Part shown: positions 51,226 to 54,846 of the stretch, piece by piece
Layout of the letters: the number at the start of each line of letters is the position of its first letter
Position numbering within the stretch: position 1 is the stretch's first letter
Source of the DNA: Fusobacterium perfoetens
GTDB taxonomy: Bacteria > Fusobacteriota > Fusobacteriia > Fusobacteriales > Fusobacteriaceae
DNA: 56,999 nucleotides
Reading direction: 5' to 3'
NCBI RefSeq assembly: GCF_021531475.1
Contig: NZ_JADYTX010000008.1
Coordinates: 1-56,999 of the forward strand
Notes under the pieces: generated by a model
Told to the model about the DNA's origin: nothing
Seen by the model: the letters and a program-made list of their open reading frames with translations, nothing else
Database searches by the model: none
Program-made: the position numbers and the translations under genes

Positions 51226-51228
51226 AAA

Positions 51229-51270
51229 TAAAATCCAAGTGACTGAAATTTCAGAAACTTGGATTTTTTA
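51229..51270. terminator. Terminator between the DAHP synthase and XRE-cupin genes
   Basis: AAAATCCAAGT pairs with ACTTGGATTTTTT around an inner CTGAAATTTCAG palindrome. It serves two convergent genes. Its ATCCAAG stem recurs in the terminator at 54402-54440. Confidence 0.85.
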
Positions 51271-51804
51271 TTATTTTTTACTAGAGAACCAGTAAACTAC
51301 AGATTGACAATCTTGAGGATTTCTATATCTATGAGGAGTATTTTCTTTTATAAAAATAGAATCTCCCTCATAAAGATGGTATAGAGTTTTGTCAAGTTCT
51401 ATTTCAAGCTCGCCTTTTATAACTACACCGATTTCATCATAACCATGTCCCCAAGAAAGATCATGAAAAGCTCCTTTTTCATCAATGGTGATTGCAATTC
51501 CGTTAAGGCTCTCTTTACCACTTAAAAGACGTTCAACTTTTAAAGAAGTTTTGTTGTTGTTAAATATTTCTTCCCTTTCTTTAGTACGAGTTACAGGTTT
51601 TTCTTCTTGTTCTTCACTTAAAATTTCCATTAAATTTATTCCTAAAGCTTGGCAGATTTGTTGAAGATTACTGATAGATGGACTGTTTAGATCTCTTTCT
51701 ACATTGCTAAGAAATCCTAAAGAAAGTCCAGTCATATCTGACAAATCTTTTAAAGTATACTCTTTGCTTTTTCTAATATTTTTTATTTTCTCCCCCAAAT
51801 TCAT
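51271..51804 (-). CDS. XRE-family regulator with C-terminal cupin domain
   Basis: This 177-residue regulator has an N-terminal Cro/CI helix-turn-helix (about 5-60, with DLSDMTGLSLGFLSNVERD). A hinge follows, then a C-terminal cupin (about 105-175) with SWGHGYDEIGVVIKGELEIELD, EGDSIFIKENTPHRYRN and VVYW. Such proteins sense a small molecule in the cupin and often control amino-acid or polyamine metabolism. It diverges from a membrane protein and L-serine dehydratase, its likely targets. GGGAGG precedes the start. Confidence 0.88.
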   Translation of the reverse strand: MNLGEKIKNIRKSKEYTLKDLSDMTGLSLGFLSNVERDLNSPSISNLQQICQALGINLMEILSEEQEEKPVTRTKEREEIFNNNKTSLKVERLLSGKESLNGIAITIDEKGAFHDLSWGHGYDEIGVVIKGELEIELDKTLYHLYEGDSIFIKENTPHRYRNPQDCQSVVYWFSSKK

Positions 51805-51835
51805 AGATTATTCCCTCCCGTCAAATATCTATAAA

Positions 51836-51864
51836 ATTATATCACAAAAAAAGATTAATGTAAA
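51836..51864 (-). promoter_or_regulatory. Promoter of the XRE-cupin gene
   Basis: On the minus strand TTTACA (51859-51864) and TATAAT (51836-51841) are 17 bases apart, about 32 bases before the start. Confidence 0.6.
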
Positions 51865-52040
51865 TTTAAGAATAACAGGTATATTTTAAAATTCATAATA
51901 CTGAAAAAATATAAAAAATACTAAATTCAAAATAATGAAAAATATTTCAGAAATTATATCTTAAAAATAGTAAATATATTAAAAATAATACTAAAAAAAT
52001 AAAAAATAAAATAAAAAAATTCATTTTAATAAAAAAGTTG
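51865..52040. other. Extremely AT-rich divergent spacer
   Basis: This is the middle of a 359-base gap with no coding frame. It has repeated AAAATA/TAAAAA tracts and almost no G or C. I see no structured RNA in it. It may act as a flexible or UP-element-like region for the divergent promoters. Confidence 0.4.
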
Positions 52041-52069
52041 TTGCAAGAAAATGAAATTCATGGTATACT
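52041..52069 (+). promoter_or_regulatory. Promoter of the EIIC-like/sdaA operon
   Basis: TTGCAA (52041-52046) and TATACT (52064-52069) are 17 bases apart. The start point falls within the adjoining inverted repeat. Confidence 0.65.
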
Positions 52070-52088
52070 TTTTCACGTATGTGAAAAA
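52069..52088 (+). promoter_or_regulatory. Inverted-repeat operator at the EIIC-like/sdaA promoter
   Basis: TTTTTCAC (52069-52076) and GTGAAAAA (52081-52088) are perfect complements separated by GTAT, covering the expected transcription start. This is where a repressor would sit, and the XRE-cupin protein encoded divergently is the obvious candidate. No second copy is evident at the regulator's own promoter. Confidence 0.6.
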
Positions 52089-52163
52089 ATAAAGTTTTGT
52101 CAATAGATAATACACTATGTTAATTTTTATTGAACAAATAGAAAAAAATAAGGAGAAAAAGAA

Positions 52164-53183
52164 ATGGACGTAATTAAAGGAGTAGTATTATTATTTTTAG
52201 TTTTAGGAGGATTTTCATTCTTTAGTATGAAAATGCCAAAGGGAATGAAAGCAATGGGAGCTTTAGCAGGAGCAGCGACAGCTAGTTTTTTAGTTGAGGC
52301 TTTTCAATTATATGTTGGTGGAGATCTTTTTGGGATACCATTTTTAGGAGAAGTTGGAAAAGCAGCTGGAGGTTTAGGAGGAACTGCCGCAGCGATTCTT
52401 GTACCAATAGCTTTAGGAGTTAATCCAACTTATGCAGTTTTAATTGGAGTTTCTGTTTCAGGATTTGGAATATTACCAGGATTTTTAGCAGGATATATTT
52501 TATCTTTCTTAATTCCAAAATTAGAAGAGAAAATACCTCAAGGTTTAGATTTAATAGTTGTAATTTGTTTTATCGCACCACTTGCAAGACTTATAGCATC
52601 AATATCAAACCCAATAGTTAACTCTACTCTTTTAAATATAGGAAGAATTTTAGAAAGTGCATCTCACTCAAGTCCTATTTTAATGGGAATTATTTTAGGA
52701 GGAGTAATCACAGTTGTAGCAACAGCACCTTTATCATCAATGGCTCTTACAGCTATGATGGGATTAACTGGAGTGCCTATGGCAATAGGAGCTTTATCTG
52801 TAATGGGATCATCTTTTATGAATGGAGTTTTCTTCCACAGAATGGGATTTGGAGATAGAAAAACAACAATAGCAGTTGCGATTGAGCCATTAACACAAGC
52901 GGATATAATTTCAGCAAACCCAATTCCAGTTTATATAACTAACTTTATCGGTGGAGCTTTAGCAGGAGTTGTAGTATCTTTATTTGGTCTTGTAAATAAT
53001 GCAACAGGAACAGCTACACCAATAGCAGGTTTAATGGTAATGTACGGTTTCAATGATGCAATCACAGTTACAAAAGTTGCTTTAATGTGTGCTGGGTCAG
53101 GAATTTTAGCAGGATTTTTAGGTTCAGTAATATTTAAAAATTATAAAATAAAAACTGTAAATGAGATAAGAGGTGTTAACTAA
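52164..53183 (+). CDS. EIIC-like integral membrane protein (PTS_EIIC_2 type)
   Basis: This 339-residue protein is almost entirely hydrophobic, with about nine helices rich in Gly and Ala. GIPFLGEVGKAAGGLGGTAAAILVPIALGVNPTYAVLIG (about 52-90) and GSSFMNGVFFHRMGFGDRKTT are its clearest motifs. They resemble the stand-alone phosphotransferase IIC-like family rather than classical sugar IIC subunits. No IIA or IIB domain is fused or adjacent, so PTS-type transport is doubtful. Its stop overlaps the sdaA start by one base, so it is probably a carrier for serine or a related compound (inferred). AAGGAG precedes it. Confidence 0.7.
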   Translation: MDVIKGVVLLFLVLGGFSFFSMKMPKGMKAMGALAGAATASFLVEAFQLYVGGDLFGIPFLGEVGKAAGGLGGTAAAILVPIALGVNPTYAVLIGVSVSGFGILPGFLAGYILSFLIPKLEEKIPQGLDLIVVICFIAPLARLIASISNPIVNSTLLNIGRILESASHSSPILMGIILGGVITVVATAPLSSMALTAMMGLTGVPMAIGALSVMGSSFMNGVFFHRMGFGDRKTTIAVAIEPLTQADIISANPIPVYITNFIGGALAGVVVSLFGLVNNATGTATPIAGLMVMYGFNDAITVTKVALMCAGSGILAGFLGSVIFKNYKIKTVNEIRGVN

Positions 53184-54391
53184 TGGATAGTTTAAGAGAA
53201 TTATTTAAAATTGGTTGTGGACCATCAAGTTCTCACACAATGGGACCAGAGAGAGCAGCTAAAAAATTTAAAAGTGAAACACCTGAGGCATTTTCTTATA
53301 AAGTTGAACTTTATGGAAGTTTGGCAGCTACTGGAAAAGGACATTTAACAGACTGGATAATAGAAGAAACTTTAAAACCAAAATATACAGAGATAGTTTG
53401 GATGCCTGAATTTGTTCATGAATATCATACTAATGGAATGAAATTTATGGCTCTTGATGAGAATGAAAATGTTATAAAAGATTGGTTAGTTTTCTCTGTT
53501 GGTGGAGGAACTATAAAAGAATTAACAGACAAAAGAAGTGGAGCTGGAGAATGTTATAACCTAAAAAAAATGGACGACATTATGGCTTGGTGTAAAGAAA
53601 ATAATAAAGAGCTTTGGGAATATGTTGAGTTTTGTGAAGGAAAAGAGATTTGGGATTATTTAAAAACAATTCTTGATGCAATGAATCAAGCTGTTGATAG
53701 AGGAATAAAAAAAGATGGAGTTCTTCCTGGAAAATTAAGATACCCAAGAAGAGCAAAAGAGATTTATGATAAAATCGACAAAAGAAGAAATTATTTAGTT
53801 TTAACTAAAAAAATATTTGCTTATGCACTAGCAGTTTCTGAAGAAAATAGTAGTGCAGGAACAATAGTTACAGCTCCAACTTGTGGTTCAGCAGGAGTAA
53901 TTCCAGGACTTTTAAGAGCTTTAATTGAAGAGTGGGAGTTAGATGAAACAACATCTTTAAGAGCTTTAGCAATAGCTGGACTTATAGGAAATCTTATAAA
54001 AGAAAATGCAACAATCTCTGGAGCAGAGGGAGGTTGTCAAGCTGAGATTGGTTCTGCTTGTTCGATGGCAGCTGGAATGGCAGTTTATATTTTAGGTGGA
54101 ACAACAGAGCAAATCGAATACGCAGCTGAAATGGGAATGGAACATCATCTTGGAATGACTTGTGACCCTGTTGGAGGGTATGTTCAAATCCCTTGTATAG
54201 AAAGAAATGCTATTGTGGCAGTAAGATCTTTAAATACAGCTGATTATGCACTTTCAACAGATGGAGCTCATACAATAAGTTTTGACCAAGTAGTTGTAAC
54301 AATGAAAGAAACTGGTTGTGATATGTGTTCTTCTTATAAAGAAACATCTACTGGTGGGCTTGCAAAATACTATGATAAATTTTTAAAATAA
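53183..54391 (+). CDS. sdaA: L-serine ammonia-lyase (dehydratase), iron-sulfur type, single chain
   Basis: This 402-residue enzyme converts L-serine to pyruvate and ammonia with a [4Fe-4S] cluster. The beta-domain signature GPSSSHTMGPERAA is at 13-26. The alpha domain carries APTCGSAG, GGCQAEIGSACSMAAG and GGYVQIPCIERN, whose cysteines are the likely cluster ligands. Both domains are in one polypeptide, somewhat shorter than the roughly 455-residue E. coli enzymes. It is translationally coupled to the EIIC-like gene and ends at a terminator, so it is the catabolic half of this module. Confidence 0.93.
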   Translation: MDSLRELFKIGCGPSSSHTMGPERAAKKFKSETPEAFSYKVELYGSLAATGKGHLTDWIIEETLKPKYTEIVWMPEFVHEYHTNGMKFMALDENENVIKDWLVFSVGGGTIKELTDKRSGAGECYNLKKMDDIMAWCKENNKELWEYVEFCEGKEIWDYLKTILDAMNQAVDRGIKKDGVLPGKLRYPRRAKEIYDKIDKRRNYLVLTKKIFAYALAVSEENSSAGTIVTAPTCGSAGVIPGLLRALIEEWELDETTSLRALAIAGLIGNLIKENATISGAEGGCQAEIGSACSMAAGMAVYILGGTTEQIEYAAEMGMEHHLGMTCDPVGGYVQIPCIERNAIVAVRSLNTADYALSTDGAHTISFDQVVVTMKETGCDMCSSYKETSTGGLAKYYDKFLK

Positions 54392-54401
54392 TATAGAAAT
54401 A

Positions 54402-54440
54402 AAAAATCCAAGTTACTAAGCTTAGTTTCTTGGATTTTTA
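54402..54440. terminator. Terminator after sdaA
   Basis: AAAAATCCAAG (54402-54412) pairs with CTTGGATTTTT (54429-54439) around an inner ACTAAGCTTAGT palindrome. It also serves the convergent small exported protein gene. Confidence 0.85.
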
Positions 54441-54444
54441 TTTA

Positions 54445-54846
54445 TTATATTAAATTTAGATAATCAAACATAGTTTCATCGTTATAAAAATATGGAATTT
54501 CAGTTCCAAGGATATTTTCTATCTCTTGAAGTCTATAAAACCTTATAAATTCCATCTCATCTTTTAAAAGACCAATCTCTTCCATAAGAGTTTTATATTT
54601 ATTTTCATTATTTTCTTTTAAAGCTATGTTTGAGAGAGAACGAAGTTCAATAAAACGATTTCTAAAATTAATCTCATCATTTAATATATTTTTTTTAACA
54701 TTGATAAGAGCTTTTATTTTATCTTGTGGAAGTTCAGATAAAATTTTTTTAGTTTTGTAAACATCTACCTCTTTTTGAGAAGCGACTTCTTCAGCTAAAG
54801 AGATAGTTGAAAAAGCTATTAAAAAACTAAATATTAAATTTTTCAT
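54445..54846 (-). CDS. Small exported helical protein linked to a two-component system
   Basis: I do not recognise a named family. This 133-residue protein has a clear Sec signal (MKNLIFSFLIAFSTISLA, cleavage probably after ISLA). The mature part is almost wholly amphipathic helix with many Lys/Glu and regularly spaced Leu/Ile. The layout, about 115 residues with LPQDKIKALINVKK, a long central helix and a final EIENIL segment, recalls periplasmic CpxP/Spy-type proteins, though no clear LTxxQ motif is present. It overlaps the kinase end by four bases, so it is cotranscribed and perhaps feeds back on the sensor (inferred). Confidence 0.7.
   Translation of the reverse strand: MKNLIFSFLIAFSTISLAEEVASQKEVDVYKTKKILSELPQDKIKALINVKKNILNDEINFRNRFIELRSLSNIALKENNENKYKTLMEEIGLLKDEMEFIRFYRLQEIENILGTEIPYFYNDETMFDYLNLI

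Follow-up and report, generated by a model that had tools for sequence, protein, structure and literature searches.

A PF13303 membrane protein paired with an L-serine dehydratase in Fusobacterium perfoetens: a candidate serine carrier on a phosphotransferase-type fold

A 56,999-nt stretch of the Fusobacterium perfoetens genome (contig NZ_JADYTX010000008.1, positions 1 to 56,999; hereafter the window) carries at 51271-54391 a gene for a helix-turn-helix and cupin regulator (REG), which diverges from a gene pair encoding a membrane protein of Pfam family PF13303 (IIC) and an iron-sulfur L-serine dehydratase (SDA). On balance, the locus appears to be a serine catabolism module of two units, with REG as the switch, IIC as a carrier that works independently of the phosphotransferase system (PTS), and SDA as the enzyme. 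The three genes are:

51271-51804, minus strand: REG, XRE helix-turn-helix and cupin regulator of 177 aa, with HTH_3 and Cupin_2 both above cut-off
52164-53183, plus strand: IIC, PF13303 ("PTS_EIIC_2") membrane protein of 339 aa, with an EIIC fold and no EIIB domain
53183-54391, plus strand: SDA, one-chain iron-sulfur L-serine dehydratase of 402 aa, with a shortened beta part

The open reading frames (ORFs) lie at the coordinates given by an earlier sequence-only reading, and Pfam and NCBIfam recovered the corresponding domains. The overlap that it reported also stands, since IIC ends and SDA starts at position 53183, the one base common to both.

In the proposed mechanism, REG would occupy the TTTCA-N6-TGAAA sites near the promoter of IIC-SDA. 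Most likely it would keep the pair repressed, and serine or a close metabolite, sensed by its cupin domain, would lift the repression. IIC would work alone, moving its substrate (most likely L-serine) without phosphorylation, and SDA would deaminate serine to pyruvate and ammonia. IIC would fill the slot that SdaC holds in sdaCA operons. A wider proposal is advanced more tentatively: PF13303 may be a PTS-derived family that lost phosphoryl transfer and now serves as a phosphorylation-free amino-acid transporter, for L-serine in its dehydratase-linked branches. In that case it would be the first example of an amino-acid carrier with the EIIC fold, and at this locus two phased operators would place it under a dedicated XRE-cupin protein. 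Annotations of PF13303 members name either PTS sugar subunits or the toxin regulator PfoR. Serine transport by these proteins would mean that many transporters of Firmicutes and Fusobacteriota bear the wrong name and that the EIIC fold also serves outside sugar phosphorylation.

Fold of IIC and its relation to the PTS

IIC matches PF13303 at 198.2 bits (cut-off 28.9) over residues 28-333, and no other Pfam family matches it at E 0.001. It is therefore without a match to PF03222 or PF00375, the families of SdaC and SstT, in agreement with the earlier claim that the protein is unrelated to known serine transporters. Sequence searches against solved structures found no relative of IIC. An AlphaFold2 model was built from 52 sequences (one from the window, the others from 51 of 78 loci) and reached a mean predicted local distance difference test score of 89.4 and a predicted template modelling score of 0.83. 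The top two Foldseek matches of this model were the integrative EIIC models 9a6a and 9a3b. A second structure aligner returned PtsG (8qsr; Z 14.5, root-mean-square deviation 4.6 Å, 298 aligned residues), MalT (6bvg; Z 14.1, 307 aligned) and ChbC (3qnq; Z 11.3), with no Z above 6.4 beyond rank 8 and everything after the PTS entries at Z 5.6 or less. Helical bundles may reach a Z of 13 by chance, yet the top rows are all PTS carriers. No amino-acid carrier fold stood above EIIC in the aligner list, although absence from such a list proves nothing. In the predicted model, the match covers nearly the whole protein (about 300 residues) with no extra domain, which places IIC, as modelled, in the EIIC fold of the glucose superfamily.

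Profile comparison adds a hint at the level of motifs. A first comparison of IIC with EIICs (52 rows) found nothing (probability 0.4), and a wider one (64 rows, seven EIICs) gave weak probabilities of 59-68%, with E-values that hold for a single comparison and a value as a motif hint only. Its alignment pairs E241-P242 of IIC with E298-P299 in the GITEP motif of PtsG, and puts PtsG H211-H212, part of a GLHH motif invariant in five aligned EIICs, in a 37-column gap; both placements are hints from a profile alignment and not a residue-level structural alignment. E241, P242 and Q245 are invariant in the 52 sequences. IIC resembles the PTS carriers PtsG and MalT in fold over about 300 residues and possibly in the GITE glutamate; it differs from them in having neither EIIB domain nor partner genes, in apparently missing the His-His loop, and in an identity of only about 12-15%.

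No EIIB domain was found in the 339 aa of IIC, where PF13303 is the only domain, and no EIIA or EIIB was seen among the scanned neighbours of IIC in the window and its relatives (for the named loci, the top 25 of 191 neighbour families). Neither component is fused to IIC, and neither was seen alongside it among these neighbours. The sequence-only reading had likewise seen no EIIA/EIIB partner, and this holds for the position beside IIC and for dedicated partners among the scanned neighbours; ordinary PTS parts are encoded elsewhere in the genome (six PF02378 and nine PF00359 matches). IIC is likely an EIIC-shaped carrier that left the PTS and now works independently of it.

Pairing of IIC with serine dehydratase

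SDA combines SDH_beta and SDH_alpha domains and scores 395.2 bits against TIGR00720 (L-serine dehydratase, iron-sulfur, single chain; curated cut-off 345.1). In an alignment with the L-serine dehydratase 4rqo, SSSHT is conserved, and the GCQ, TCDP and IPC cysteines, presumably the iron-sulfur cluster ligands, are identical; part of the beta portion is absent. Serine deamination by SDA is, to judge from these family and motif matches, very likely.

Among 98 Fusobacteriota genomes, 35 loci encode IIC at 67% identity or more, and SDA lies directly downstream in 21 of them (the window and 20 fetched loci). A set of 33 Fusobacteriota loci was fetched with wider flanks; it includes five at about 50% identity, none of which has SDA. 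The closest IIC from a named organism is that of Fusobacterium mortiferum (90% identity). Several Fusobacteriota matches count one internal TAA; the mapped loci show a full-length ORF, and the match seems to overrun the stop.

The pairing extends beyond this phylum. In the best 80 of 226 named loci, where adjacency means the same strand within about 300 nt, a serine dehydratase is adjacent to IIC in 31: fused and downstream in 5, split into beta and alpha and downstream in 19, and split and upstream in 7. Fusobacteriota supply 12 of the 80 (5 with SDA), and outside the phylum 26 of 68 loci show adjacency. Because a list of best hits may be skewed, 151 Bacilli genomes were also sampled evenly, of which 23 carry IIC, at 33 loci; a PF03313 dehydratase lay within 3 kb on the same strand at 12 of these, as judged by hand comparison of positions. 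This sample includes its centre, picked for having the module, without which the count is 11 of 32. Ten of the 12 Bacilli loci fall in a group at 39-46% identity with 12 members in the sample. By our own estimate, chance would give fewer than 1 such adjacency in 100 loci. In a Clostridia sample, IIC was found in 3 of 196 genomes at E 1e-20, with a dehydratase in the flanks of one, namely the centre chosen for having it.

Three gene orders occur, with IIC followed by fused SDA, IIC followed by split beta/alpha genes, or split genes followed by IIC. On a tree of 72 rows, the adjacency changes 13 times, compared with a shuffled mean of 24.4; at least 8 changes are forced by starred branches, and the longest inner branch separates two groups that both contain adjacent loci. 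The rows of this tree were picked by hand and it was computed in quick mode with long-branch warnings. The pairing of IIC with dehydratase is more than a chance neighbourhood. The sequence-only reading had given rarity of this adjacency as a ground for refutation, and the counts come out in its favour (31/80 named, 21/35 Fusobacteriota and 12/33 Bacilli loci), though many relatives stand alone.

A scan of other neighbours covered 105 of 124 proteins from 78 of the 80 named loci. The 19 left out were mostly repeated Staphylococcus entries, two loci (L092 and L093) were dropped as IIC was not picked as an ORF, and the count passed over SDA, IIC and any ORF above 1000 aa. Herein, RidA and NhaC-type proteins each account for 4 of the 105, and serine dehydratase, at 31 of the 80 loci, is the commonest metabolic neighbour. 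RidA clears 2-aminoacrylate, an intermediate of serine dehydratase. In Cetobacterium, its gene is divergent from IIC, and AGCS symporters also occur among the neighbours; both are in keeping with a role in amino-acid use. Because of the pairing with dehydratase, the sdaCA precedent and RidA beside orthologues, imported L-serine is favoured, if not strongly, as the substrate of IIC.

A longer arrangement is seen in two genomes (loci L175 and L176), where pheT, sdaA, pth, Rnf-like genes and IIC lie on one strand and SDA is about 6-7 kb upstream of IIC; positions in two further genomes agree. In L175, a RidA gene is divergent between the Rnf-like genes and IIC. On contig C1 of the window's own genome, pheT, sdaA, pth and Rnf follow one another in the same order, with no IIC in the fetched stretch. 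There, the names pheS, pheT and pth come from Pfam matches, and the Rnf-like genes are presumed from gene order and sequence.

Regulator and operator-like palindromes

REG shares the HTH_3 and Cupin_2 architecture of PuuR-type regulators, and PuuR is its best NCBIfam match. However, its score is well below the cut-off (63.3 bits against 211), its neighbours are different, and so presumably is its ligand. Of the 33 fetched Fusobacteriota loci, the 20 that have SDA all carry REG divergent from IIC, and the 13 without SDA lack it. REG-like proteins are present in 9 of the 80 named loci, four of them without SDA (Tepidibacter, Metaclostridioides). Judging by neighbouring genes, other lineages seem to have exchanged the regulator of the same carrier. 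Regulators of the YheO type (PAS_6/HTH_22; for example L088:4849-5589) make up 8 of the 105 scanned neighbours, and those of the SarA/Rot type 5.

The features around the genes are as follows:

52041-52069, plus strand: promoter-like TTGCAA-17-TATACT with extended TG, from a consensus scan, conserved across 14 aligned close loci
52019-52034, no strand: O1, degenerate TTTCA-N6-TGAAA copy (8/10) upstream of the -35
52071-52086, no strand: O2, operator-like TTTCA-N6-TGAAA palindrome just downstream of the -10
51836-51864, minus strand: promoter-like TTTACA-17-TATAAT for REG, from a consensus scan (11/12), the total number of such sites being not above shuffles
51226-51275: terminator-like hairpin between the DAHP synthase gene (plus) and REG (minus), -17.2 and -17.7 kcal/mol on the two strands, z about -6
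54398-54450: terminator-like hairpin between SDA (plus) and a 133-aa ORF (minus), -16.2 and -13.9 kcal/mol, z about -5

The IIC-SDA promoter has its -35-like TTGCAA at 52041 and its -10-like TATACT at 52064-52069, which puts the predicted transcription start inside an inverted repeat at 52069-52088 (TTTTTCACGTATGTGAAAAA). The sequence-only reading had pointed to this repeat as an 8+8 element. It is indeed there, and occurs once in the window at up to two mismatches; at least one match at that tolerance was held by 13 of 100 shuffled windows, so that alone it is only mildly surprising, and the conservation of its core between loci carries more weight. As a conserved palindrome, the 8+8 form was rejected, since it is perfect in the window only. 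What an alignment of 14 close promoters has in common is its 5+5 core with a spacer of 6, TTTCA-N6-TGAAA, and this occupies two positions rather than one. The core is perfect in 12 of the 14 promoters, compared with a mean of 0.05 and a maximum of 1 in shuffled regions, and no perfect palindrome exists there at any other spacer from 0 to 12. One locus (L040), a near copy of L039, was excluded from the operator count.

O1 starts 45-46 nt before the -10; it is perfect in 10 of the 14 close loci, 9/10 in three and 8/10 in the window. O2 begins 5-8 nt downstream of the first base of the -10, and is perfect in the window and in L042, 8-9/10 in ten loci and 4-5/10 in two. A distance of 50-54 nt, roughly five helical turns, separates the two starts. 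Since sequence upstream of O1 cannot be aligned between loci, the conservation of O1 is not merely a product of recent common descent. From its position and shared occurrence, REG is the probable binder of TTTCA-N6-TGAAA. That REG represses through O2 and O1 and is released by a serine-related signal is about an even call. A genome-wide regulon is not claimed, with 8 exact sites in the genome against 31 for the reversed pattern; the exact sites besides this one are mostly in coding sequence, and one is near a likely thiC gene.

Both flanking hairpins are followed by T-rich stretches and fold 5-6 standard deviations below shuffles. Because they close both ends, the locus looks like two divergent transcription units, REG alone and IIC-SDA, and the one-base overlap together with the hairpins would fit IIC-SDA as a single unit. 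The two hairpins have a nearly identical stem (ATCCAAG/CTTGGAT), as if copied.

Alternative readings and known systems

Several results weigh against a dedicated serine carrier under REG control. SDA is lacking at 14 of the 35 Fusobacteriota loci, Cetobacterium among them (six of these 14 viewed with only about 1.5 kb per side), an adjacent dehydratase is lacking at 49 of the 80 named loci, and a nearby one at 21 of the 33 Bacilli loci. In view of these relatives, either the substrate could be a different one or the association with dehydratase could be less tight. The genome encodes six SDF-family carriers (the superfamily of SstT), so IIC would not be its only possible serine route. It also holds a second fused-type sdaA, between pheT and pth and ahead of the Rnf-like genes on contig C1; of the four PF03313 matches in the genome, the remaining two are presumably of the CyuA type. 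Outside Fusobacteriota, most named relatives are accompanied by a different regulator or by none that was recognised. Ten more distant REG loci have no perfect palindrome and none clearly above shuffles; the REG proteins of distant loci differ too (alignment of 24 distinct REG rows). Furthermore, no transport or binding experiment on the PF13303 family was found in the literature searched.

IIC could be a PTS-independent carrier of another small amino or hydroxy acid, or an exporter of serine or of an SDA product such as pyruvate, as might be suggested by the SDA-less orthologues at 67-75% identity, by the NhaC-type and AGCS carriers beside them, by glycine reductase genes near a relative at 50% identity, and by the further candidate serine carriers in the genome. 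This is unlikely but deserves serious consideration; serine dehydratase outnumbers every other metabolic neighbour by a wide margin, and its pairing with IIC is found across the deepest split in the tree. Alternatively, the pairing might be a loose neighbourhood kept by descent, without shared function, given that gene order is long kept among close relatives and that many family members stand alone. Three gene orders, the changes forced by starred branches, the one-base overlap and the frequency of adjacency in Bacilli far above the estimated chance make this the most improbable account considered.

Other alternatives concern the kind of protein that IIC is. A true PTS EIIC, drawing on EIIB and EIIA from elsewhere in the genome to phosphorylate a sugar-like substrate, would explain the fold (Z 14.5 to PtsG), the glutamate-proline pair aligned with GITEP and the presence of PF02378 and PF00359 proteins. 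It is improbable given the missing EIIB domain, the absence of EIIA and EIIB among the scanned neighbours and the GLHH motif facing a gap in the weak profile alignment, and sugar genes are not usual neighbours of IIC. IIC might also be a membrane sensor or regulator rather than a carrier, in line with the old name PfoR; pfoR presumably belongs to PF13303. This, too, has little probability, slightly less than that of a PTS enzyme, as the fold of IIC is that of a transporter along its whole length, without any added domain. The name goes back to a proposal that pfoR regulates pfoA, and it is also borne by a gene of S. aureus (passages in PMC4448169 and PMC13227979), whereas pfoA expression was unchanged by pfoR mutation, as retold in a passage of PMC4448169.

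A serine carrier encoded together with a dehydratase has precedents. E. coli has sdaC-sdaB. In Campylobacter jejuni, sdaCA is an operon of the serine transporter SdaC and the dehydratase SdaA (passage in PMC3511319). IIC-SDA resembles sdaCA in that a membrane carrier gene directly precedes that of an iron-sulfur L-serine dehydratase, but it differs in the EIIC fold of its carrier and in the divergent XRE-cupin regulator; SdaC is of another family, and PF03222, its Pfam model, has no match in this genome. Bacillus subtilis uses a serine transporter of a family other than that of IIC, YbeC (passage in PMC8226366). Carrier-plus-dehydratase operons are thus already known, whereas no description of a PF13303 carrier in such an operon turned up in the literature reached by our searches. 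PfoR-type proteins presumably share the Pfam family of IIC, whose subgroup differs from the others in its tie to serine dehydratase. No function was reported for the PF13303/PfoR family, in connection with serine or otherwise, in the literature searched, and one paper uses PF13303 merely as an EIIC label (passage in PMC6952197). S. aureus SA2320 was considered as a pfoR beside sdaAB and dropped, as a passage of PMC3733780 gives it as glcA. In Staphylococcus epidermidis after a glucose spike, sdaAA, sdaAB and a gene for a "PTS sugar transporter subunit IIC" drop together about 6- to 10-fold (passage in PMC11298487), which is only a lead towards a possible PF13303 gene beside sdaAB.

Two minor observations concern other family members. 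No dehydratase is labelled in the fetched stretch around the genome's second PF13303 gene (C13:12414-13367), which encodes a member of a subfamily remote from IIC (15 bits to it) and lies 3' of a LysM/M23-peptidase-like ORF, named by eye, with a run of small genes after it. In addition, a gene for glycine/sarcosine/betaine reductase component B is no more than a few kb away from an IIC relative at about 50% identity (L067:7459-8745).

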